Part shown: positions 6,085 to 57,660 of the stretch, piece after piece | How the letters are laid out: every line of letters starts with the position of its first letter | Numbering within the stretch: the stretch's first letter is position 1 | Source: a virus | DNA: 64,000 bases | Reading direction: 5' to 3' (one strand) | Virus record (IMG/VR): IMGVR_UViG_3300043786_001845 | Span: 1-64,000 of that record | Program-made: the position numbers and the translations under genes | Notes under the pieces: model-generated | Database searches by the model: none | The model's input: the letters and a program-made list of their open reading frames with translations, nothing else | Told to the model about the DNA's origin: nothing

Positions 6085-6183
6085 ACGAAGGGTTCCTTTA
6101 TCACAATTTGAATGAATGAAGTACATGGCGACTGCGGTCGCGGTCGCTTCTCAGACTTGCTCGGACGTGTCAGGGGGCGCTTT

Positions 6184-8607
6184 TCATCCACCCTCCCGGA
6201 GGTCTAGGTCGACGTTGCCGAAATCCCCGATGAACTGCGGCGACCCTCTGGCGTCAACGACTACCAGGAGTGGCTCACGCCACCACGGCTCGGTGGCCGA
6301 TGGGGGTTCTGCCAGACCACGCAAATCAACGATCGTCCCAAGCGAAGCGACAAACTCGGCCGATGGGTACGTCACGATGGTGGCGTCCTCGGCGTCCCCG
6401 CGCAGGTCCGCCGGAACGGTCGCCAAGCCGGGACCGAAGAGCTGCTCGCGCCCGTCCAGGACCACGTTCCCCTCGTCGTCGCGCCGCCACGGGGCCAGTG
6501 CGACGGGGACGCCGACGTTGCGGGCGTCAGCCGTCAGTCCGATGGCACTGACGAACTCGCTCGACGGGTACGGAGCGGCAGCGCCGATCATCGTCTCCGG
6601 GGAGCGGAAATCGGCGGCGGAGCTCGTGTCTATCAGATGGTACTGCTCGCGCCCGTCCAGGACCACGTTCCCCGCGTCGTCGCGCCGCCAGTCATTCAAG
6701 AAGTACGAAGGTGGCGTCCCGCGCGCGTCGGCCGTGCTGCCAAGAGCGATCACGAAAGCCGCGGAGGTATATGGAACGACGGTCTGCTCGGCGTAGATCT
6801 CGCCGCGGAAGTCGAGCGAGACATTCACCGTCGGCCCGTGGTCCTGAGGGCGGCAGTCGAGATCAATCCTACCTCCCTGCCGCCACGGCCCCATTGCTCC
6901 CGTCCCTCCGCCGTCCCTCCCCCAGAAATAAGTCGCTGGAAAGTGGCGACGGTCTCGGCGCGGCAGCACGCCGCTCGGAAGCGGCGGCGTCGGGTGGTTA
7001 CGGCGGTGGATCTCGACGAGATCCCACATGTCAGTGCGGCAGGGTGTATAGCCGGCACATGGATCCGCGCCCTCTCGGAAGTCAGCAGTGCCCTCTTCGT
7101 GAGCCCCCTCGCGGAGGTCCATCGCCCCGACTCCACCGGGCCCGTCGGAGCGGAAGTCTCCACTGTACCACTCGCGGCTGAAGGAGCCGTCCGGCGGCAC
7201 GGCTCCGACGGTCCTGGCGAAGCGCTCGAGGACTGTCGGGACCTCCGTCTGGCGCATGGCCGACTCGAGGGTCTCCGGCGAGAAGACGAACCTCGCCCGG
7301 TACCGGAACTCGTCCCGGTCCCGCAGGCCGTCGAAGTGGAGCGCCAGATTGTCAGCGACGGTCTCGATGCCGTCACCGGCCAGCTCCAGGAACCCGGAGG
7401 AGAAGACCAGGCCCACGTTCTCGACGAGCCTCAGGCGACGAGCACGCGGGTCGAATCGCACCACCGCGTCGGCGTTGGGGACCGCATCCCTGACCATCTC
7501 GATAGAGGAGTCGTCGTCGCGCGGGGCGCCCGACACGGCAAGAAGATGGACGTCGCCGTAGTGGACGTCCTCGAAGACGATTCGCGGTGGGACGTCCGGA
7601 AACTCCGGGTCGCCCAGCTCCAGCCAGTAGTCGACGCCGTGCGTCAGGAGGCGCCCGCCAGCCCAGACGTCGACGTCGTCCGGCTCGTAGACGGGAGCCG
7701 GCATCCCGGTGCCGTCGACCAGATCGATCTTCCAGATGCTCTCGTCCGGGGCGACCGCTGCGTCCACTTCGTACTTCCAGAACTCGGCCGAGTCGACCGC
7801 CACGAACTCGTAGCCGCCAGACGCATACTCGCCGACGATGCCGAACACCGCCAGATCGTAGGCCGGGGTCGCACGCACAGACCAGGCAGACCGCGGGACC
7901 GGGCGATAGTAGGCGTCACCAGATCTCCTGGTGAACAAGCGATAGTACCGAACGTCGTGGACGTGCCCCAAGTCGCCGAGGCGAAAGACCACGGAGGCGA
8001 CGGCAGAGCCGTCGGGCGCCGGCGCCTCGGCAGTTGCCGATTTGCCGGGAGGGATGGACGGGAAGGACGCCCCACGCTCGTTGAACTTTCGCAGGACAAC
8101 CACGCGGACGCGCGTCCCGACGGTGACGAGCACCTCGCGGACATATACCGCGAAGCCGCCCTGAGAGGGATGGACGTGGTAGTCGCTCGGTCGGACGAGC
8201 GCGCCGTCGACGAACACGAGCAGTTGAATCGCCGCAGCGAGGAGCTCGCTGCCGCAGTCGTTGCAGTACAGAACCGTGCGGGCCTCTGGGAACCCGAGCT
8301 CCGCCCCGGCTGGGTCGTAACCGCGCCTGTAGCGCAGGGCGACTAGGTCGGTCTGGGAGAGGGTGAACTTCTTCGAGTACGCCACCTCCCAGAACGGGAG
8401 GACGAAGTCTCGGAAGTGGGTTCCGTCCGGCTGTGACGCGTAGACGGCGCTGAGCGCCATCGCGGTCGTCCTCTGGTTGGACCGGATCGCGGCGAAGCGC
8501 GCGTTCAGACCCTCGACGCTGATCTCATTCTCGTCGGCCAGACCGGTGAGCAGCTGCTCCGGGTAGAGCCGGTCGAAGAGGTCGACGTAATTGACAGGTG
8601 TCAGCAT
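6184..8607 (-). CDS. Large virion-like protein with C-terminal repeats, function unknown
   Basis: 807 residues from ATG 8607 (MLTPVNYVDLFDRLYP). The upstream open frame overlaps the divergent lysis promoter region and is not used here. No enzyme motif was recognised. The last 200 residues contain three imperfect copies of a unit built on EFV-ALG-T-DARG and WRRDD-GNVVLDGREQ, which looks like a repetitive appendage. Its N-terminus resembles the MLSDLL... start of the 425-residue protein at 11775 only weakly. Position next to fibre genes suggests a tail or baseplate component; this is inference. Confidence 0.6.
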   Translation of the reverse strand: MLTPVNYVDLFDRLYPEQLLTGLADENEISVEGLNARFAAIRSNQRTTAMALSAVYASQPDGTHFRDFVLPFWEVAYSKKFTLSQTDLVALRYRRGYDPAGAELGFPEARTVLYCNDCGSELLAAAIQLLVFVDGALVRPSDYHVHPSQGGFAVYVREVLVTVGTRVRVVVLRKFNERGASFPSIPPGKSATAEAPAPDGSAVASVVFRLGDLGHVHDVRYYRLFTRRSGDAYYRPVPRSAWSVRATPAYDLAVFGIVGEYASGGYEFVAVDSAEFWKYEVDAAVAPDESIWKIDLVDGTGMPAPVYEPDDVDVWAGGRLLTHGVDYWLELGDPEFPDVPPRIVFEDVHYGDVHLLAVSGAPRDDDSSIEMVRDAVPNADAVVRFDPRARRLRLVENVGLVFSSGFLELAGDGIETVADNLALHFDGLRDRDEFRYRARFVFSPETLESAMRQTEVPTVLERFARTVGAVPPDGSFSREWYSGDFRSDGPGGVGAMDLREGAHEEGTADFREGADPCAGYTPCRTDMWDLVEIHRRNHPTPPLPSGVLPRRDRRHFPATYFWGRDGGGTGAMGPWRQGGRIDLDCRPQDHGPTVNVSLDFRGEIYAEQTVVPYTSAAFVIALGSTADARGTPPSYFLNDWRRDDAGNVVLDGREQYHLIDTSSAADFRSPETMIGAAAPYPSSEFVSAIGLTADARNVGVPVALAPWRRDDEGNVVLDGREQLFGPGLATVPADLRGDAEDATIVTYPSAEFVASLGTIVDLRGLAEPPSATEPWWREPLLVVVDARGSPQFIGDFGNVDLDLREGG

Positions 8608-19318: not shown

Positions 19319-19555
19319 TTAGTGACTATTACAGGAACCTTTGCGCTTGTGCTCCATCCACTCAGCAAATCCGAGCTTGGTGTTACCCTCGCTCACTTGG
19401 AACTGCCAATCCTTGATTGCCACATAGACAGCGTTACCGTCTGCGCAAGCATCGCAGATCAAGCCAACACTAGTCTGGACGCCGTTTTCGATGTCAGATC
19501 GTCCGCCGTAGTGCGGGCAAACAAACTGGTCATCAACTGCCAGGTTGGCTACATC
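19319..19555 (-). pseudogene. Orphan coding frame with paired cysteines, no start codon
   Basis: 78 codons read as plausible protein (VDDQFVCPHYGGRSD, LICDACADG, KDWQFQVSEG, GFAEWMEHKR) up to a TAA at 19319. CPHYGG and CDAC could be half of a small zinc-binding fold. No ATG or GTG start lies at its beginning, and its upstream part collides with the end of the RNAP exon. It looks like a gene truncated when the 860-base segment joined the RNAP gene. Confidence 0.45.
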
Positions 19556-22247
19556 TTCGGCAGCGGGTCCTCGGTCAGGACCGAGACGCCAAGCGCGTGG
19601 TCCTTGTCCAATTTCATAGCCCCGTTGAGGCCCGAGCCGCACCGACTGACGTACATCGTCCGCGGGTCGAACACCCGGTACGCCTCCGCCAGATCTCGGT
19701 CGAGCAATGGGACTAGGGAGAGCACGTCTCCGTCGTAGTCGCCACCCATGAGTTTGAGAACGCCGTTGTGGATGCTCATAGTCAGGTCGCGCATATCCCG
19801 TTTGACGTCGGTGATGCGCACCCGGAGGATCGAACCGTAATTGCAATATTGTTCACGCAGTCTTCGCTAGAGACGCGCCGCCCTCGGATCCTCTGCCGAG
19901 AGCCGCCCGCCGATTTCCGGCGGGGACAGACTATATCTTCTCCGGACGGACCGGAGCTCCGCGCTTGGGGGCCGCTTGGCCCCTACTCTACTCGGTTCGC
20001 CTTCCGGCGCCTTTCGATAGTCGTTGAACCTTCGCCTCGATGAGGACGCTCGGCTGCTGATTACCCAATCCCCCGCTTTCTCGAACCGTCACGCTCGCCC
20101 TCGCGGGCCACGTTGTGGTAGAGGAGGCTTCAGGGCGTCCCAGCAATTCACGGAGTTTTACGACGACCAATTTTCTTTCCGGCAGCCCTGCCGAAATACA
20201 GTGTAGTGATGTCTGGACGGTATGTGCAGTTCTTGAACTTGCAGAATATCGTGCGCCAACCGAGACGCAGCCCGTTTTCCTGGATGATGTCCAAGTAGGC
20301 TTTTCCGTCTCGTATCTCGGTACAGATCTTGTGGATCTGGGCGTCGGTCAAGCGCTGATTGGAGGTCGGCCTGAGACCCAGCTTGACCGCGTGCTGCAAA
20401 TTTTCCGCAGCGGTTACCCATTCGAGATTCGAAGCGGCGTTGTTGGTCTTGACGCCGTCGATGTGGTTGACCTGCAAGTTCGGCTCGTAGTCCTCGCCCT
20501 TGAACACCTTGGCGAGGACGATGTGCAGCGTGTAGTTGACGCCGCCCACCTCGAAGCGGATGTAGCCGTTCACGGTGGCCGGCGACCTGAGCTGCAGCAG
20601 ACGCTGGAACTTCAGGTTGCGCACGCGGCCGCTGGAGCTGAACTCGTAGTTCGCGAAGATCCTCGCTTCCTCGGGGAACAGGAGCGGGTCGAACCGTCTC
20701 CACTCCTCCAGGTCGCACTGCTCCGCGTCCTGCTCGCCCAGGCCCTCGTCGACGTACTTGCGAGTCTTCGACAGGCCGAGCTTGCTCAGGATCGAGTAGA
20801 GCTTCGTCGCCCTGTCGACACCCAGCTCTCGCGCGAGCTCCTTGACATTGCTGCCGTCGTAGTTGTCGCGCAGGAACTGGCAACGCTCCTCCGTCCAGAA
20901 GCGCTCGCGCCCCGTGCCGCGGCCCTGCACCAGGCCCAGCTCGGAGCACTTCCGGGTGACGACCTTGCGGTCGACCCCCAGCGCGTCAGCGAGCTCCTGG
21001 CGGCTCATGCTGTCGTGGTTGGCGACCAGGAAGTCCACATTGTCCTTCGTCCATTTCACTGCTAACTGTAAATCGGGCATAAAGCTAACCTTCGAGTGTG
21101 TGAGAACAATCGAATGTTAGTGCTTGAGGCTTGAAAGTTCGGGAATCGTCGGGTTCCGATTCAATAAACACGGCAGGCCGCCGCTCTCGCTGCGCTTGAT
21201 CATTTCCTTCATGGCCTGGTACACGGATCGGTCGAACTTCGTCTGAGCGCGACTCCACACCGCGTTGGCCTCCCGCACGTCCACGCCGCGCAGCCGGCTG
21301 ATCAGATTCGTCAGCTGGAAGCGATACAGCTCCAGGAACGCCAGGTATGGAATCTCGACCTCGTCCTGCTCGTGGCCCGGACGCAGCGGGACGATGACGC
21401 AGCGAGACGAGAAGTTCACGCGGACGCCGAGGAGGCTGCTGCGCAGGTAACCACCCTTCCCGGAGAGGACGTGAAGGACGTGCTCGAAGACCTCGTTGGC
21501 CCGCTCCTGGATACGCCAGAGGACGCTGTTGATGTTCGCCTCGGTGCGCTCCGCGTCGCTGTACTCGTCGAGAGCCTGGACATTCGCCACCAGTAGGTTG
21601 AAGACGTTGTTGACCTCGTCGAAGATCAGCTGGCGGTCGACCACCAGGGCCGGCCTCAGGATGTGGCTGAACACCGGGATCTTGCTGGTGAGGAGCTTGT
21701 CGGCGTTCTCGCGGATGAGGGTGGCGTACTCGGAGACCCGTGGGTCCTGGCGGCCGCGCTTCTGCTCGTAGTGGTCGAGGACCTCTTCCCATCGCTGCTC
21801 GAAGCCGAGGATGCCGATTCCGTCGTACGGCCCGGCTGACTCGTCCTCGCGGGTGAGACCGTCCACCGTGAGGATCTTCTTCTGGTGGAGGATGCGGATC
21901 AGCTGGGAGGGGCCGACGACCTTGCCGACGTAGGTGAAGAACAGCGGGCTGAGGATCTTGTAACCGCCGAGGTCGACCCAGCCTCGCTTGCTGAACACGG
22001 TGTCGCGGCAGGTGACGACGGTGTCGCACTTCTGGCACGTCGTGCCCTCGTGGAATCGGCCCTCGACGGCGCCGCACTCGCACGCGTATTCCCGTCCCGA
22101 GCTGGGCATCCTCCCGAAGATCCGCTCGCTGAAGACGCCACCGTCCGAGAACTTCCCGCTCCTCTCGACGACTGGCGTGGGGTCGTCGACGACCCCGTCC
22201 TCTCGGAACCCATCATCCAAATTGATCAGACTCACAAACACTTCCAT
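19549..22247 (-). CDS. RNA polymerase beta-prime subunit, N-terminal part, split by a group I intron
   Basis: Exon 1 runs from ATG 22247 (SD AGAGGAGAG) to about 21145, exon 2 from about 19843 to the stop at 19549; joined they give 465 residues. Recognisable parts: FSERIFGR and a zinc site (Cys56, 58, 71, 74); GGYLRSSLLGVRVNFSSRCV (switch/rudder region); LLNRNPTI; and in exon 2 GGDYDGD (Asp403, 405, 407), the metal-binding catalytic triad. The C-terminal half is a separate gene at 27119-28387. Split, virus-encoded beta-prime chains are known from phiKZ-like phages and transcribe phage genes independently of the host. Without splicing exon 1 ends prematurely, before the catalytic site. Confidence 0.85.
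19556..19577. repeat. 22-bp imperfect direct repeat, right copy
   Basis: Counterpart of 18694-18715. It overlaps the last codons of RNAP exon 2, so the present stop (PLPKM) may differ from the ancestral one (PLPN). Confidence 0.65.
19844..21144 (-). mobile_element. Group I intron with HNH endonuclease in RNAP beta-prime gene
   Basis: About 1.3 kb between two exons that join in frame as NRNPT-I-NYGSILRV. The 3' 300 bases hold the group I core in order on the minus strand: AATTGCTGGGA (P), AATCAGCAGCC (Q), GTTCAACGACTATCG (R, near 20030-20015) and AAGATATAGTCTG (S, near 19938-19926); GACTAT and ATAGTC can pair as P7. Choosing exon 1 ending in T and the intron ending in G gives these limits; they are certain to within a base or two. 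The order and sequence resemble phage subgroup IA2 introns such as T4 td. Confidence 0.85.
20148..21080 (-). CDS. Intron-encoded HNH homing endonuclease
   Basis: 310 residues. Two N-terminal helix-turn-helix repeats (SRQELADALGVDRKVVTRKC and VKELARELGVD) can read DNA. A NUMOD4-like part (FPEEARIFANYEFSSSGRVR) precedes the HNH core LQVNHIDGVKTNNAASNLEW, which has the family's His, Asn and Asn/His residues. It would cut intronless RNAP alleles and spread the intron. It lies entirely inside the intron, start ATG 21080 with AAGG upstream. Confidence 0.88.
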   Translation of the reverse strand: MPDLQLAVKWTKDNVDFLVANHDSMSRQELADALGVDRKVVTRKCSELGLVQGRGTGRERFWTEERCQFLRDNYDGSNVKELARELGVDRATKLYSILSKLGLSKTRKYVDEGLGEQDAEQCDLEEWRRFDPLLFPEEARIFANYEFSSSGRVRNLKFQRLLQLRSPATVNGYIRFEVGGVNYTLHIVLAKVFKGEDYEPNLQVNHIDGVKTNNAASNLEWVTAAENLQHAVKLGLRPTSNQRLTDAQIHKICTEIRDGKAYLDIIQENGLRLGWRTIFCKFKNCTYRPDITTLYFGRAAGKKIGRRKTP

Positions 22248-25250: not shown

Positions 25251-25283
25251 GCAGGAACGGGTGCGCCCGTTCCTGCTTTTTTT
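25251..25283 (+). terminator. Rho-independent terminator
   Basis: GCAGGAACGGG-TGCG-CCCGTTCCTGC followed by seven T. Ends the plus-strand operon that begins at 22403. Confidence 0.92.
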
Positions 25284-27033
25284 ATTTGAGCTTATAGACG
25301 TAGCGCAGCTGCCCGCAGTCCCAGAGGCGCGCGTACCCGAGTGCCTGGGCCATCTGCCACTCGGTCATGGACGCGTCGAAGCTCGGCTCCATGGCGAGCA
25401 GCTTGTGCCGCTGCAGGCTGGAGCGGTGGAGGCGCTTGTTCGAGTCGTTCTTGTGCACGTAGTCGTAGGAGACCTTCGTCTGCCTCTCCAGCCGGAAACC
25501 GACGAGCTCGTAGCCTCGGCTGCCCCGGAGGGGGGTCCACCGGAGATCCGCGTACGTTACTAATTCCTCGTGGTCGGAGAGGTCGTACGAGCGCCGGAAA
25601 GCCGCGATGATGCGCCCCAGCGCGCCCCGGACGACGCTGCCGCCGACGGTGCAGAAGCGCAGCAGCTCGAGCTGCCGCCCGGCCGAGCCGCCGGTGATCG
25701 CCCTCTCCCCGAAGGTCGCCAGGGCCAGCAGGAGGCCGTCGTCTCCACGGAGACCGACTGCCGCCTCGAGGAGGGGGATGCTCCCCTGGAGGTGGTTCGC
25801 GTCCAGGAAGGCGCGGGCCTCGCGAGCTGGGACGAAGGCGTCGACGGTCGTCTTCCTGGCGTCGAAGACCGCCAGCGGACGGCAGAGAATGGCGCGCAGG
25901 CGGGACTCCACCGTGGAGCGCCGACCCGCCCACTCGTCGGAGTAGACTCGGATCAGCTGGACGCCCAGGTCAGCCAGCCGCCGCGTCTTCTCCAGGGCAG
26001 CCCCCGGGCGGGCGGCCTCCCTCCCGCTGAACCACCGCTCCCTCGAGCGGCCCTCCGAGTGCCACCAGACGCCGTCGAAATCTATCGCCACCCCCCTCTC
26101 GGGAATGTACATGTCGACCTTGACCCTCGGGCTCTCCGGCATGAGCCCGGGGAAGTCGGATTGGACCCCGGGCGCGAGACCTCGGACGAAGTCGAGCAGC
26201 TGCAGCTGCCCGCGGGACGCCCGTCCCAGGCGCGCGCACGCCGGGCAGCGCACGCCGCCCTCGTCCCTCTGGAAGTTGTCCGGCCTGGCACGCCACTCGG
26301 TCCCGCAGGTCTTGTGCCGGTGGAGCACGGGAGTCTTCCCGGTCCTGTACGGCTCGAGCAACTCGTACTCGCCGAGGGACCGCACGAAGGCCGCGTAGGG
26401 CTCGCCGTACCTCTGGCACGCGCACTGCCTCGACGCGGTGGAGCCCTCGTCGAAGGTCTCCCGCACGCGCACCCAGGTCACGCTCTTCGTCTCGCCGCAC
26501 GACGTGCACGCGAACGAGATGGTAGTCTTCTCGGAGGCGGCGGTGGCTTTCCAGGTGGTGCCGCGCTCGTAGGCGGCCACGACGTCGCCGATGACGTGGT
26601 CCTGGGGATTGCCCGAGCAGGATGGGCAGCGCTGCCCTCCCCGCAGATTGGACGGCGACACCCTGAACATCCGGTCGGCGTGCGCCGCGCAGCGGAAGAC
26701 CACCGGCTCGAAGAGGCCGCGGTACTCGCTCTCGATCTCGTATCCCAGTTCGGCGCAGAGCGCCTCGAGCCGCGCCCGGCCGGCGTCGCGGTTCTTGTCG
26801 GCGGTCCTCCGGGCGGCACACGCCGGGCAGCCGCTTTTCTTTTTGTCGTTTCTGACCACGCTGTGGATTTCCGTCTGCCACGTGGAGTCGCAGTGGAGGC
26901 ACCGGAAACTGGCGAGCGTCCGGATGGTCGCCCCGTCCAGGTGCGAGGGGGACACGCGGACGAAGTGCCCCTCGAGGCACGCGGCCTCTAGGCGCATCGG
27001 CAGCGGGCGCGGATCTTTCGTGCTTGTTTTCAT
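25282..27033 (-). CDS. Zinc-ribbon, EDxHD/Vsr-like free-standing homing endonuclease
   Basis: 583 residues. The N-terminal half has at least four zinc-ribbon-like CxxC pairs (CLHC, CPAC, CPSC, CTSC, CPAC). The nuclease core is VKVDMYIPERGVAIDFDGVWW followed by H, then RLADLGVQLIRVYSDEW, the layout of the EDxHD/Vsr branch of PD-(D/E)XK enzymes. The C-terminal part (FLDANHLQGSIPL, ELLRFC, YADLRW, DYVHKND, DCGQLRYVYK) is a domain common in such phage endonucleases. It lies just downstream of the C-terminal RNAP beta-prime gene, so it probably homes into a nearby site. Confidence 0.8.
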   Translation of the reverse strand: MKTSTKDPRPLPMRLEAACLEGHFVRVSPSHLDGATIRTLASFRCLHCDSTWQTEIHSVVRNDKKKSGCPACAARRTADKNRDAGRARLEALCAELGYEIESEYRGLFEPVVFRCAAHADRMFRVSPSNLRGGQRCPSCSGNPQDHVIGDVVAAYERGTTWKATAASEKTTISFACTSCGETKSVTWVRVRETFDEGSTASRQCACQRYGEPYAAFVRSLGEYELLEPYRTGKTPVLHRHKTCGTEWRARPDNFQRDEGGVRCPACARLGRASRGQLQLLDFVRGLAPGVQSDFPGLMPESPRVKVDMYIPERGVAIDFDGVWWHSEGRSRERWFSGREAARPGAALEKTRRLADLGVQLIRVYSDEWAGRRSTVESRLRAILCRPLAVFDARKTTVDAFVPAREARAFLDANHLQGSIPLLEAAVGLRGDDGLLLALATFGERAITGGSAGRQLELLRFCTVGGSVVRGALGRIIAAFRRSYDLSDHEELVTYADLRWTPLRGSRGYELVGFRLERQTKVSYDYVHKNDSNKRLHRSSLQRHKLLAMEPSFDASMTEWQMAQALGYARLWDCGQLRYVYKLK

Positions 27034-27118: not shown

Positions 27119-28387
27119 TTACCGCAGCTCGCGCGTGTACTTCGCAAAGTCAATTTTTGCATGCTTTAGCGAGGTGTCGTGGAATGCCTTCAAACTTGCG
27201 TTCAACAGCACAGTTCCCACTCGGCTCGCCACCAGCCCGATGTTGGTTATGCCCATGCGGTAATGGAGCGTGCCGGCGCACCTCGAGCAGATGCCCTTCT
27301 TCGACCCGCAGAACAGCGGACTGCGGAGCTGCAGGGTCTTCCCCTTGATCGTCCCCGCCGACTCCGCCGTGATCTCGACGAGCTTCCCCCCCTCCTTGTA
27401 GAATCGGTACAGGTACTCGCGCGGCTCGTCCACCTCGACCCGCAGCGTGAGCGGCGTCCTGCAGTCCGACTCCGGGTCCGGGTCGAGCTGGAGGCCCTGG
27501 AACGCGGCGTTCAGCTGCTTTGCGATGTAGCCGCCCTGGGCGGTCATCATGGAGCGGCCGTACGACGCCTGGACGATGAGGTCGGCGTACGCCGGAATCT
27601 CCCTCTGCGGAATCCCCTCCTCCAGCGACGCCGTCGAGACCGTGATCTTCGACGGGTCGTCGGACTTGCGCATCGCGCCGCGCATCAGCGCCGTCGACTT
27701 GAAGTTGTTGCCGAGGGACCCCCTGGCCCCAGACGCGAAGATGTCGTACCCGGGGTCCTTCCCGTCGAGCTCCTTCGTCGACACCGCGATCAGCTCCTTC
27801 TCGGCGGCCGCCAGCTCCTTCAAGTCGCCGCCGCGGATCCGGTCCCCGCGCTCTCCGGAGAGGATCTCCTTCTTGAGCCTCCGCGCGGCCGCGGGCGCCC
27901 GGATGGTGTCGATGGTCATGGACGGGGCCAGGAACGAGGTCGGGGCGTAGCCGAGCCACTGCATCCGGTCGATCGCCCACGCCATGTCCTCGTGATCGAT
28001 CTTGCCGTCGAGGCGCGCGTCGACGAGCTGCTGCTCGATTTTCTTGATCGTCTTGCCGTCCCACGGCTGGTCGTGGTACGGAATCGCGGAGCGGAGAGCC
28101 CTGGACCTGGAGAAGATCAGATTGTTGGCCAGGAATCGGCCGACGGTCGTGCTCCTCACGGACTCCCATCCCGGAGACCAGCGGACGTCCCACTCCCCAG
28201 TCCCGCGGTTGCCGGGCGGGGGGCTGCGGAAGTCGGCCGGGATGTCGAGGATGGCCTGGGGGTCGTACTTGGACGAGCCCTTCCGCGTGGCGGCCAGCCA
28301 CGAGCGGAGCAGCGAGAGCGTGTAGTCGCCGGGCTGGACGCGCACCAGCTCGGCGGCATCCGCGGCCTGGGTGATCTTGCGTTCCAT
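27119..28387 (-). CDS. RNA polymerase beta-prime subunit, C-terminal part
   Basis: 422 residues from ATG 28387, one base after the upstream stop. It contains the bridge-helix/trigger-loop region: ASGARGSLGNNFKSTALMRG, then SLEEGIPQREIPAY and MMTAQGGYIAKQLN, a late CSRCAGTL cysteine pair, and VASRVGTVLLNASLKAFHD, the counterpart of the conserved C-terminal helix of beta-prime. It completes the enzyme whose metal site is in the intron-split gene at 19549-22247. Splitting of beta-prime at this level is a feature of giant-phage RNA polymerases. The beta chain is not in this window. Confidence 0.85.
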   Translation of the reverse strand: MERKITQAADAAELVRVQPGDYTLSLLRSWLAATRKGSSKYDPQAILDIPADFRSPPPGNRGTGEWDVRWSPGWESVRSTTVGRFLANNLIFSRSRALRSAIPYHDQPWDGKTIKKIEQQLVDARLDGKIDHEDMAWAIDRMQWLGYAPTSFLAPSMTIDTIRAPAAARRLKKEILSGERGDRIRGGDLKELAAAEKELIAVSTKELDGKDPGYDIFASGARGSLGNNFKSTALMRGAMRKSDDPSKITVSTASLEEGIPQREIPAYADLIVQASYGRSMMTAQGGYIAKQLNAAFQGLQLDPDPESDCRTPLTLRVEVDEPREYLYRFYKEGGKLVEITAESAGTIKGKTLQLRSPLFCGSKKGICSRCAGTLHYRMGITNIGLVASRVGTVLLNASLKAFHDTSLKHAKIDFAKYTRELR

Positions 28388-28388
28388 C

Positions 28389-28880
28389 TCAGGCCTCCGA
28401 GGCGCGGAATCCGGCCTCGCCGAGCAGTTTCGCGAGCTCGGCGCGCCCATTGGATGCCGTTCCGCCCAGGTACCGCAGCCGCACCTTCAGGCAGCCGTCC
28501 TCGGATGCGAACGAGCACGCGCCGTCCGGTGCCTCGCCGGAGAAGGCGGCCCGCGCGGCGTCCGCGTCTGGGCTGGCAGCCGGGGCCGTTATCTCGGCGT
28601 CCGCGATTGCCCTGCGGAGCGCCCACTCCCGCCCGCCGGCGCCCTCGTCGTGGTCCGCGTCGACCAGCCTGGCCGCGCAGGCGTCCTTTCCGTCCCACCC
28701 ACCTGCCCGCAGCGCCGCGGGCAGTCGCCCGAGAAGCGCCGCGAGCCTGGCTGGCCCGTCGACGCGGCCGGCCGCGGCCCGCAGGCGCTCACCGACCTCG
28801 GCGCTGGCGGTGAAGCCAGCGGTGGAGTGGGAGTGCTCCCAAAGGCCGAGCTCAAGCATCAATTCAATTTCGTCACTCAT
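28389..28880 (-). CDS. Hypothetical protein
   Basis: 163 residues, start ATG 28880 with GGAGACAGAG upstream. Alanine- and arginine-rich, helical (SAEVGERLRAAAGRVDGPAR), ending in a beta-rich CLKVRLRYLGGTASNG segment. Stop-to-start distance to the RNAP gene is one base, so the two are co-translated; a small RNAP-associated role is possible but unsupported. Confidence 0.55.
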   Translation of the reverse strand: MSDEIELMLELGLWEHSHSTAGFTASAEVGERLRAAAGRVDGPARLAALLGRLPAALRAGGWDGKDACAARLVDADHDEGAGGREWALRRAIADAEITAPAASPDADAARAAFSGEAPDGACSFASEDGCLKVRLRYLGGTASNGRAELAKLLGEAGFRASEA

Positions 28881-43699: not shown

Positions 43700-45502
43700 T
43701 TAGTCCAGGCCGCCGCCGGCGACGGGTCTGGTCAGCACGATCTGGTTGCTGGAGATGAACAGGGACACGATGCTGGCTGCACCGCGGAGCACTTCCACGT
43801 CAGTGTCCACCGGGTTGATGACCTGCGTCCCCTTGACTGGCGAGTACGTCCGAGTGAGGGCGTTGTAGGCCACGCCGTCCCGGACGCACTGCGCGATTAC
43901 AGCCTGCGGATTATCGATGCCGGCATTGACCAAAACACGAGATGCGGCTTCGATATAGGCATTGTAGAACGCCTGCAGCGTCGCGAGAGCGAGGGTCTCG
44001 CACTCTGCCTCCGGGAGATTCGTGCGCAGCGAAATGCGATGGCCGACGTCGTCCGCGACGGCGTCGTCCGTGTAGAGAATGCGGACGGCAGTCATCCCCA
44101 TCCCCTCGACGGTGCCGGACGAAATAGCAGCGCGAACGGCCAGGACGGCATCATCGATGAGAAATGCCAGGGCGCGTCGCTCCTGCTCGGTTGGGCCGCC
44201 CACAGCGACGGTCACCTGGGAGCCCTGGAGGGCGCGGATTCTCGATCGCAGTTCATGGATCTCCTCCGACAGTGCCTCGGCATTGTTGGACTCGTCCAGC
44301 CTGATGAGCTGCGCACCAAGTTCGGTCGCCCGCGCGTCCGCCCCGGCAGTCGTCTCGCTGCCGAACGAGAACACGGTCTCGGAGCGCGTCGACTTGGCCG
44401 CGCGCGCAAAGCCGCAACATGACAGCACGTTGTACTCTTCGGTCGGGCAGTTGTCCCGCGTGATCACGGAGGCGCCGAGGACCGCGGCGAGATCGCCGAG
44501 ACGGGCACGCGCCCCCCTCGTGCTCCCGGAATGGTCCACGAGGAGAATCTTGGCGGATGGTGTCTCCGAGCGGAATTTTGAGATGGCCGCCACGACGTCG
44601 TCCGTGAACTGGTGAGACACGGCCACAAAGGCCCGCCCGTCCGTCAGGCAGCGGTTCATCGCCATCGCCACGACCCTGTTGAACATGGGCTGGTCCACGA
44701 TGAGATCCAGCACGAGCACGACGGCATCGGTGAGGCGACAAACCGTCGGAGTGACGCCGTCGGGCCCGACCTCGTTGGCGAAGCAGTCGTGGACCATCCC
44801 GCGCAGCACGCGGAACCCGGCCTCCGGTACGATCTGGATGCCCCTTTCCGATTGAGAGGTTGTCACGTTCACGCCGACGTCGGATCCGTACTCGCTGTAC
44901 AGCGCCGCTATCAGCTTCCCAACTTCGGGATCATTGTTGGCGGAGATGGTGGCAACTGCACCAACTGTCTCGTCGGTGGTGCTGAGAGCCGCCTTGCCGA
45001 TACGCTCAGCGAGGCTGTCGGCGACGGCGCCGATGGCGGCCTGGATGGAGCCCGGGGCGAAGCGCTGTGAGACTCTGCTTTCGAGGAGGGAGGAGTAGAG
45101 CGCGTCTGCCATCACGACCGCGCTGGTGGAGCCATCCCCTACCTTCCGGACCATGGCGCGGCTGACGGACCGCACGTGATCCAGAACCATCGTGGCGGTC
45201 TCCTGGACGTACGTCAGTCGTTGAAGGACGGTGTAGCCGTCCTTGGTGGCGAAGTGGTCGCCTCCCTCGTCACGCACCAGGACGTTGGCGCCGCCTGGGC
45301 CGAGAGTCCGGCCGACGGTGTCGGCCACGGCGGAGAGGGCGGATGAGACGGCCTCAATGTGATCCTGCCCGGAAAGCACATTGCCGCGCGGAGGCACAGC
45401 TCGGCTCGTCTTTGTCTCGCCCACCAGAGGGCGGGCGGCGAGAGCCAGCGCCTCCTCCAGGTGGCTGCCGGCGGCCGGCCGAATGTGTGCGCTGTCCTTC
45501 AT
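43700..45502 (-). CDS. groEL-like: GroEL-like chaperonin (Hsp60)
   Basis: 600 residues from ATG 45502 (GGAG upstream). ATP-site motifs: VADTVGRTLGPGGANVLVRD, the GDGSTSAVVMADAL phosphate loop, ISANNDPEVG, and near the end DNPQAVIAQCVRDGVAYNAL with VINPVDTDVEVLRGA. The flexible GGM tail of bacterial GroEL is absent and no GroES is visible. Phage chaperonins of this type (e.g. in phages EL and OBP) fold viral proteins without a co-chaperonin. The apical and intermediate domains are divergent from host GroEL, arguing against recent host capture. Confidence 0.88.
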   Translation of the reverse strand: MKDSAHIRPAAGSHLEEALALAARPLVGETKTSRAVPPRGNVLSGQDHIEAVSSALSAVADTVGRTLGPGGANVLVRDEGGDHFATKDGYTVLQRLTYVQETATMVLDHVRSVSRAMVRKVGDGSTSAVVMADALYSSLLESRVSQRFAPGSIQAAIGAVADSLAERIGKAALSTTDETVGAVATISANNDPEVGKLIAALYSEYGSDVGVNVTTSQSERGIQIVPEAGFRVLRGMVHDCFANEVGPDGVTPTVCRLTDAVVLVLDLIVDQPMFNRVVAMAMNRCLTDGRAFVAVSHQFTDDVVAAISKFRSETPSAKILLVDHSGSTRGARARLGDLAAVLGASVITRDNCPTEEYNVLSCCGFARAAKSTRSETVFSFGSETTAGADARATELGAQLIRLDESNNAEALSEEIHELRSRIRALQGSQVTVAVGGPTEQERRALAFLIDDAVLAVRAAISSGTVEGMGMTAVRILYTDDAVADDVGHRISLRTNLPEAECETLALATLQAFYNAYIEAASRVLVNAGIDNPQAVIAQCVRDGVAYNALTRTYSPVKGTQVINPVDTDVEVLRGAASIVSLFISSNQIVLTRPVAGGGLD

Positions 45503-45519
45503 ATGTATCTCCATCGTGG

Positions 45520-55656: not shown

Positions 55657-56631
55657 TTACATGTAGGCGGCCAGGATGCCGGCGGCCTCATCTTTGCTGC
55701 TGATGGCGTGGCTCTTGCCGGCGCGCAGGGCGCTCACCAGATAGCCCATGGACTGAGCATTGACCTTGGAGACGGCGCTGATGACGGCGCTGATGGAGCT
55801 CTGGACGACCGGGCCGATGGTGGTGAGTGCCTCCAACTTGCGGTTGAGGCTCTCCTTGCCGTCCTTGTCTTCCTGGCTGTCACCGCGGCCCTTCGAGTTG
55901 GCCCAGACCGTGGTGTAGCCCTCGGCCTTCTTCACGAAGGAGTCGGCGATCTGCTTCGCATGGGGGAGGTCCTCCATGTCCTTGAAGGCGGCATGGGCGA
56001 CCTTGATCATCGCCTTGACGCCGGCGGCATCGATTGCCACTTCCTTCTCGTCGCCGATGATGTCGTCCTGGAGGCTCTTGGTGAGAGAGCCATCCTTGTC
56101 GCCACTGCGGCCGTAGAGCTCTTCCACCTTCTTCTTCAGTTCTTCGCGGTCGACCTTGTCGCCGACGTCGTTGGACAGAGTGAGAGCTTTCTGAGCCTTC
56201 TCGGCAAATTCCTTGAACTTCGTGCCGGAGTAGGCCATGACCTTGCTGCCGAAGGAGTACTTGGCGTCGCCGAAGCTGGTCAGCTTCACAAGCTCGGCCT
56301 CGTTCTTCTTCAGCCACTCGGTACGGGGGCCGAAAACCTTGCTCCGGATGCTCTCGAACGCGGCGGAGATCCAGTTCACGAACTTCTTCCAGTACTTGAC
56401 GATGGTGTCTTTGACGCGGCCAAAGAATTCCTTGATGCCCTCGTTGAGGGTCTCGGGGCTGGCGCTCTCCACAATGCAGTGGTGCTCCAGGCGTGCCATG
56501 GCGATGTTGAGGTTACCGATGGTGACCATCGATTCCATGGTGTTCTCGATCAATTCCTGCGGCTCGCCGACGAAATCGCCGATGCCAACGGACTTTCCAG
56601 CCAGGGCAGGCAGGTTGTTTTCCAAGATCAT
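55657..56631 (-). CDS. phiKZ internal-head-protein-like paralogue A
   Basis: 324 residues from ATG 56631 (AGGAG upstream). After MILENN a helical body follows: ELIENTMESMVTIGNLNIAM, FFGRVKDTIVKYWKKFVNWI, WLKKNEAELVKLTSFGDAKY, then VQSSISAVISAVSKVNAQSM. This resembles the phiKZ-like internal (inner-body) head protein family, whose N-terminal part is often processed. It is nearly identical to the next gene upstream. Codon use is neat and AT-shifted; expression is expected to be high. Confidence 0.6.
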   Translation of the reverse strand: MILENNLPALAGKSVGIGDFVGEPQELIENTMESMVTIGNLNIAMARLEHHCIVESASPETLNEGIKEFFGRVKDTIVKYWKKFVNWISAAFESIRSKVFGPRTEWLKKNEAELVKLTSFGDAKYSFGSKVMAYSGTKFKEFAEKAQKALTLSNDVGDKVDREELKKKVEELYGRSGDKDGSLTKSLQDDIIGDEKEVAIDAAGVKAMIKVAHAAFKDMEDLPHAKQIADSFVKKAEGYTTVWANSKGRGDSQEDKDGKESLNRKLEALTTIGPVVQSSISAVISAVSKVNAQSMGYLVSALRAGKSHAISSKDEAAGILAAYM

Positions 56632-56697
56632 TACGAAACTCCTAAGGGTTGATTTACAAATTTGCAAACAGAGACGGGACGGGACGCGACGCGGGAA

Positions 56698-57660
56698 TTA
56701 CATGTAGGCGGCCAGGATGCCGGCGGACTCTTTTTTGCCACTCAGGGCGTGGGAGCGGCCTGCGCCCAGGGCGTGTACCAGATAGCCCATGGACTGAGCA
56801 TTGACCTTGGAGACGGCGCTGATGACGGCGCTGATGGAGCTCTGGACGACCGGGCCGATGGTGGAGATCGCTTCCAGTCGGCGGTTGATGCTCTTCTTGC
56901 CGTCCTTGTCGTCATCACCTTTCGAGTTGGCCCACATTGCGGTGTAGCCCTCGGCCTTCTTCACGAAGGAGTCGGCGATCTTCTTCGTCTGGGGGAGGTT
57001 TTCCATGTCCTTGAAGGCAGCGTGGGCGACTTTGATCATCGCCTTGACGCCGGCGGCATCGATTGCCACTTCCTTCTCGTCGCCGATGATGTCGTCCTGG
57101 AGGCTCTTGGTGAGGGAGCTGTCCTTCCCATCGCCGCGACCGTAGAGCTCTTCCACCTTCTTCTTCAGTTCTTCGCGGTCGACCTTGTCGCCGACGCTGT
57201 CAACCAGATTCAGAGCGTGCTGGGCCTTGTCGGTGAAGCTCTGGCATACGGTGCCGGAGTAGGCCATGACCTTGCTGCCGAAGGAGTACTTGGCGTCGCC
57301 GAAGCTGGTCAGTTTCACCAATTCGGCCTCGTTCTTCTTCAGCCACTCGGTACGGGGGCCAAAGATCTTGCTCCGGATGCTCTCGAACGCGGCGGAGATC
57401 CAGTTCACGAACTTCTTCCAGTACTTGACGATGGTGTCTTTGATACCGCTGAAGAATTCCTTGATGCCCTCGTTGAGGGTCTCGGGGCTGGCGCTCTCCA
57501 CAATGCAGTGGTGCTCCAGGCGTGCCATGGCGATGTTGAGGTTACCGACTGCAACCATCGATTCCATGGTGTTCTCGATCAATTCCTGCGGCTCGCCGAC
57601 GAAATCGCCGACGCCGGCAGATGTTTTGCCCGGGGTGAACGTGTGGTTTTCGAGGATCAT
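56698..57660 (-). CDS. phiKZ internal-head-protein-like paralogue B
   Basis: 320 residues, roughly 85 percent identical by eye to the adjacent copy, including leader (AGGAGTTTT). Differences cluster at residues 5-15, around SGTVCQSFTDKAQHALNLV and KGDDDKDGKKSINRRLEAI, while MARLEHHCIVESASPETLNE is unchanged. Tandem duplication of capsid-interior proteins is common in giant phages. Confidence 0.6.
   Translation of the reverse strand: MILENHTFTPGKTSAGVGDFVGEPQELIENTMESMVAVGNLNIAMARLEHHCIVESASPETLNEGIKEFFSGIKDTIVKYWKKFVNWISAAFESIRSKIFGPRTEWLKKNEAELVKLTSFGDAKYSFGSKVMAYSGTVCQSFTDKAQHALNLVDSVGDKVDREELKKKVEELYGRGDGKDSSLTKSLQDDIIGDEKEVAIDAAGVKAMIKVAHAAFKDMENLPQTKKIADSFVKKAEGYTAMWANSKGDDDKDGKKSINRRLEAISTIGPVVQSSISAVISAVSKVNAQSMGYLVHALGAGRSHALSGKKESAGILAAYM

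Follow-up and report, generated by a model that had tools for sequence, protein, structure and literature searches.

The interrupted RNA polymerase gene

The window analysed here is a stretch of 64,000 nucleotides of DNA from a 64,289-bp virus record, and has a GC content of 63%. On its minus strand lies a gene for an RNA polymerase subunit that is divided into two exons, with a putative homing endonuclease encoded between them (Table 1). Exon 1 corresponds to positions 32-388 and exon 2 to positions 392-450 of the phrog_2987 (RNA polymerase subunit) profile, and exon 2 stops close to where the intronless homologues stop. When joined (22247-21145 and 19843-19549) the exons encode a protein of 465 aa, which is 35% identical to phiR1-37 g274 ('RpoC N-terminus') over 98% of the length and also matches proteins of Bacillus, Listeria and Staphylococcus jumbo phages. 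The family profile fits the non-virion RNA polymerase (nvRNAP) structures of AR9 (7s00) and phiKZ (7ogp) much more closely than it does those of cellular polymerases. Homology to AR9 and phiKZ combined with a DxDGD motif, present in exon 2 as GGDYDGD, marks the nvRNAP beta-prime N subunit, and the interrupted gene most likely encodes the N-terminal beta-prime subunit of a non-virion-type polymerase. If the RNA were left unspliced, the frame would run to a stop at 21117 and yield a 376-aa fragment without the DYDGD catalytic motif.

The presumed partner, the beta-prime C-terminal subunit, is encoded without interruption; its product reaches position 430 of 433 in the phrog_2962 profile and its AR9 and BpSp homologues match at 38-39%. 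Directly downstream of this gene is an apparently free-standing ORF for a 583-aa endonuclease-like protein with treble-clef zinc fingers (25282-27033, minus strand; phrog_559, E 3e-69). The position of this ORF raised the question whether the beta-prime C gene might hold an intron too, which was ruled out by the full length of that gene.

Table 1. Positions in the window of the two beta-prime genes, the intron and the elements within it
Feature	Position	Strand	Support
Exon 1, codons 1-367 + 2 nt, ending ...NRNPT-I at CGACGAT	21145-22247	-	phrog_2987 E 2e-49; homologue alignment (AR9, phiR1-37, Goe21)
Group I intron, 1301 nt, last base G (omega-G)	19844-21144	-	RF00028; homologue junction; guide
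Hairpin burying the HNH ORF Shine-Dalgarno GAAGG (21093-21089)	21085-21120	-	Folding
Putative HNH homing endonuclease ORF, 310 aa	20148-21080	-	HNH_3 E 1.6e-10; phrog_59 E 1.5e-30; 1u3e E 2e-8
Guide: P10 strand AATTG (20172-20168) and internal guide sequence GTCGTCG (20167-20161)	20161-20172	-	Pairs with exon 2 CAATT and exon 1 CGACGAT
P3 5' strand CTCCGTG	20149-20155	-	RF00028; covariation
P4 5' strand TTGCTG (P element)	20141-20146	-	RF00028; covariation
P4 3' strand CAGCAG (Q element)	20054-20059	-	RF00028; covariation
P7 5' strand GACTAT (R element)	20017-20022	-	RF00028; covariation
P3 3' strand CGCGGAG	19957-19963	-	RF00028; covariation
P8 hairpin CTCCGG-TCCGT-CCGGAG	19940-19956	-	RF00028; folding; strand layout
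P7 3' strand ATAGTC (S element)	19929-19934	-	RF00028; covariation
Exon 2, resuming C-AAT-TAC (NYGSILRV...), with GGDYDGD, ending TAG	19549-19843	-	phrog_2987 E 2e-10
Beta-prime C-terminal subunit gene, uninterrupted, presumed partner	27119-28450	-	phrog_2962 E 9e-65

Identity and boundaries of the intron

An original prediction had placed a group I intron at 19844-21144, next to the catalytic site of a beta-prime gene, and had proposed a covariance-model search and an alignment with intronless phage polymerases. In the Rfam scan of the window RF00028 (group I intron) matched within that interval, at 19908-20199 on the minus strand, with 52.3 bits and E 2.1e-10 over the full model, and it is the sole family above the gathering score (50) anywhere in the window. 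The two boundaries, 21144 and 19844, have three supports, namely the protein alignment, the DNA of an intronless contig and the P1/P10 guide. Against six intronless homologues (phiR1-37, Goe21, BpSp, LPJP1, PALS_2 and Phabio) the joined protein aligns through NRNPTI-NYGS with zero indels, nothing being extra or missing at the junction, and none of these homologues has in-frame residues corresponding to the insert. In L015, the closest intronless contig at 41% identity, the DNA across the site is CCCGACGAT/CAAC, and the window after joining reads CCCGACGAT/CAAT. The intron is inserted in phase 2, following the second base of the codon after PT, about 35 residues ahead of the DYDGD metal site, and its 3' end reads ...ATTG with the terminal omega-G in place. 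The predicted interval was in this way borne out to the base.

Jumbo phage RNA polymerases are naturally split into several polypeptides, and the interruption could in principle represent a subunit of this kind with an endonuclease gene between its parts, or else a frameshift or an assembly break; the natural split, however, lies after the DPBB domain and not at NRNPT (PMC7598289). The RF00028 match, the guide and the exact match of the exons also argue against any such reading, and we give it almost no weight. We are highly confident, from the sequence features described here, that the gene is interrupted by a group I intron, which is predicted to be mobile and to splice itself and may well belong to subgroup IA. 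Introns of this subgroup are distinguished by the extra elements P7.1/P7.2 between the P7 and P3 3' strands. About 53 nt lie between the P7 5' and P3 3' strands in the window and could form hairpins, as judged from folding and strand layout.

Guide pairing and covariation in the core

The guide AATTG/GTCGTCG forms 12 consecutive pairs over the spliced exons CGACGAT/CAATT (seven in P1 and five in P10), with a U.G pair at the splice site. When the 80-nt guide region was scored, 9 of 1338 decoy junctions equalled the true score, all of them no more than 5 nt away and reusing the same duplex. The test is specific only in this expected region, because over the whole 1301-nt intron, including the HNH ORF, 70 of the 1338 decoys reach the true guide score. 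The P1 of the Rfam model, a local hairpin at about 20195-20175 inside the HNH ORF, was dropped, the exon-guide pairing at 20167-20161 being taken as the real P1. With 20167-20161 paired to the 5' exon in this way, the HNH ORF sits in the P1 loop.

The P, Q, R and S elements that had been recognised by eye are present as AATTGCTGGGA, AATCAGCAGCC, GTTCAACGACTA and AAGATATAGTC. Strands of P3, P4 and P7 were cut by hand from six introns (the window, the IMG/VR contigs L040, L053 and L043, and the phiKZ relatives T2P and PA7), and were found in order in all six. In this small, hand-cut alignment 94.7% of cells pair and eight pairs have changed on both sides; neither value was matched in any of 500 shuffles, and slid controls pair at 36-62%. 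Two compensatory changes fall in P7, the guanosine site, where L043 has GAUCAU/AUGAUC, which backs the GACTAT/ATAGTC helix of the original prediction. The global folding energy of the 333-nt 3' part is no better than that of shuffles (z -1.1), and minimum free energy is uninformative for this core. Folding energies near those of shuffles can occur for GC-rich RNA.

The endonuclease and the hairpin at its start

The presence of an HNH endonuclease in the intron, also part of the prediction, is upheld by the HNH_3 match of the ORF at 20148-21080. The protein is laid out as two N-terminal HTH units, a NUMOD4-like part, HNH_3 and a C-terminal HTH-like part. It resembles I-HmuI, the intron enzyme of phage SPO1, over the NUMOD4-HNH part (1u3e, E 2e-8), but differs from it in the extra N-terminal HTH units and in being nearly double the length. 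The catalytic His and Asn of the HNH motif are intact (HIDGVKTNN...NLEWVT...EN in sequence), and its GC3 of 0.84 is similar to that of the exons. A protein-pattern search of viral contigs found no close relative of the HNH protein. An antisense ORF at 20115-21065 (plus strand) was dismissed as a mirror of the HNH codon bias.

The final codons of the ORF, ATT GGT CGT CGT AAA ACT CCG TGA, constitute the guide and most of P3, so that the guide bases also code for IGRR in the protein tail and the stop codon overlaps P3. At the other end of the ORF, the hairpin at 21120-21085 has a folding energy of -13.4 kcal/mol (z -2.3), with 4 of 200 shuffles as good. In the T4 td intron a hairpin over the ribosome-binding site and an ORF whose 3' end lies in the ribozyme core are known, and loss of the hairpin impairs splicing (PMC2988022; PMC3073962). 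The td intron with I-TevI shares both of these features with the window, but its enzyme is of the GIY-YIG type, its ORF lies in the P6 loop and its host gene is that for thymidylate synthase. By analogy with td, the hairpin and the overlap of ORF and core in the window may act in the same manner.

Relatives of the gene in metagenomes

An alignment search of IMG/VR recovered 80 loci with the beta-prime N gene, most of them uninterrupted and a few split according to profile mapping; a protein-pattern search of viral contigs with the single joined protein returned no close relative. In two of the contigs, L040 and L053, the gene is broken after NRNPT at the same phase-2 position as in the window. 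Their introns have guide, P3, P4 and P7 in a layout equal to that of the window, with P1/P10 guides of 15 pairs in L040 and nine in L053, but are only 549 and 521 nt long and A+T-rich, and their ORFs are short and placed between the strands of P4 and P7, whereas the window has a full HNH ORF in the P1 loop. The introns of the window and L040 can be aligned in two segments, one running from the guide through P3 to P4 (40 nt, 80%) and the other at P7 (23 nt, 91%), which suggests a common descent of the two ribozymes. At the gathering score and at E up to 1, RF00028 detected no intron in L040, L053, L033, L059 or AR9, so that core strands, guides or exon structure served to judge these five; the group I identity of L040 and L053 thus rests on their conserved core strands and guides. 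A further contig, L033, is about 96% identical to L040 and is without the 549-nt insert at the intron position of the window, so providing a natural empty site.

The ORF of L040 appears by eye to be a short NUMOD4-like remnant, and decay does seem to occur at this site. It could be asked whether the intron of the window is likewise a degenerating element, the ribozyme of which still splices while the endonuclease no longer homes. Its ORF is open over 310 aa, has the HNH residues intact and shows a coding-type GC3, which makes this unlikely.

Other insertions interrupt the gene elsewhere. L043 has an RF00028 intron (56.5 bits) about 11 nt upstream of the site in the window, at NR/NPS. L033 and L040 have an extra insert just before LPGLNADFDGD (approximately 6090-7950 and 6640-8500, respectively), with no RF00028 match. 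A second insert in L053 (5735-6868), at the conserved NFTAR/NV(I) motif, gives the beta-prime gene three exons, and in L059 (3688-4923) the break in the gene comes further upstream, near position 180-206 of the profile.

Comparison with known phage introns

Introns in the same gene are already known from AR9/PBS1, relatives of phiKZ and Staphylococcus jumbo phages, some 30-40 codons downstream at DxDGD; no prior record of an intron at the exact NRNPT site was found in the openly accessible literature. In AR9 the beta-prime N gene is annotated as a two-part CDS (BI022_gp269) around the HNH gene gp270. AR9/PBS1 resembles the window in the gene affected, in having an HNH_3 and NUMOD4-type enzyme in the intron and in the existence of an intronless sister phage, Goe21. 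It differs in its site (DYDG/D, about 38 codons downstream) and its ORF, and has no RF00028 score above threshold. Three Staphylococcus phages (PB50, AH12 and Machias) have the gene split at or near DxDGD. RF00028 introns are present in the nvRNAP beta-prime N gene of T2P and PA7, two relatives of phiKZ (80.4 and 74.8 bits), and in phiKZ itself the HNH gene PHIKZ056 precedes PHIKZ056.1 and lies between exons, the solved chain 7ogp_A joining PHIKZ055 and PHIKZ056.1. The sites in these phages are at or just before DFDGD, and their introns are only distantly similar to that of the window.

Function of the intron

The best-supported reading of function is that of a mobile intron at a site conserved at the protein level. 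We infer a scheme in which the guide 5'-AAUUG/GUCGUCG-3' would bring the two exons together by pairing with CGACGAU of the 5' exon, with a U.G pair at the splice site, and with CAAUU of the 3' exon. A guanosine bound in P7 would attack the 5' site, the exons then being joined in frame as NRNPTI-NYGS. The HNH enzyme would be translated from unspliced RNA and might nick the gene of co-infecting relatives that have no intron in it, and repair would copy the intron in. The hairpin over its ribosome-binding site may limit HNH translation, and such a limit would matter, as the ORF runs at its end into the guide and P3.

The original prediction also proposed that splicing may time phage transcription. 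What it said of the group I intron, the beta-prime gene, the HNH endonuclease and the need for splicing to give an active polymerase agrees with our results, but the role of splicing as a timer finds no support in them. Under such a regulated switch the intron would delay the active non-virion polymerase and hence late transcription; the 376-aa product of unspliced RNA would fit this, as would the expectation that HNH translation through the guide and P3 opposes splicing, a conflict that has been shown for T4 td (PMC2988022). Close relatives nevertheless differ in whether they have an intron (L033 vs L040; Goe21 vs AR9), the majority of the recovered homologues are intronless, and insertion sites and ORFs vary. 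We therefore regard a timing switch as improbable. In a more elaborate version, HNH translation and polymerase splicing would be mutually exclusive, since the same bases serve as the end of the HNH ORF and as the splice guide and P3, with the start-site hairpin deciding between them and the intron coupling late transcription to the state of infection; this too we hold to be quite improbable. The differences in intron presence between close relatives suggest instead a dispensable mobile element.

A mobile intron may also serve as a weapon, its HNH enzyme cutting the polymerase gene of co-infecting intronless relatives. This would add to the preferred reading without excluding it. In phage PhiPA3 the virion RNA polymerase (vRNAP) beta gene has a group I intron that contains gp210, and the endonuclease lowers the titre of phiKZ (PMC11620839, Birkholz et al. 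2024). PhiPA3 thus shares with the window the arrangement of group I intron, HNH enzyme (a nickase in PhiPA3), multisubunit jumbo-phage polymerase gene and conserved catalytic motif, and the insertion site of the window is conserved in relatives. The PhiPA3 intron is nevertheless in another subunit and at another site, after two conserved aspartates, and the same facts would be explained by simple homing. Interference between phages by the HNH enzyme of the window is plausible, and we advance its use as a weapon tentatively, as a possible but doubtful addition.

With these results the catalytic segment of the jumbo-phage RNA polymerase gains one more intron site that is located to the base, in a gene that is hit at several neighbouring conserved positions. 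The same-site set, consisting of the window, L040, L053 and the empty sister L033, is a further addition and allows the histories of intron and endonuclease to be separated. Also added are the location of the HNH ORF in a loop different from that of the L040 ORF remnant, and the T4-like hairpin that covers the ribosome-binding site of this ORF. Provided that it is active, the HNH enzyme would be a natural candidate for the kind of interference between phages that is known from PhiPA3.

Other features of the window

Three further loci on the minus strand deserve mention. The region at 41336-42829 matches the RNA-polymerase-labelled phrog_25005 (E 4e-36) and may encode a further polymerase subunit, and that at 43700-45514 encodes a GroEL-like phage chaperonin (phrog_5725, E 2e-81). 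Two adjacent and highly similar proteins, encoded at 55657-56667 and 56698-57660, appear to have arisen from a recent tandem duplication.
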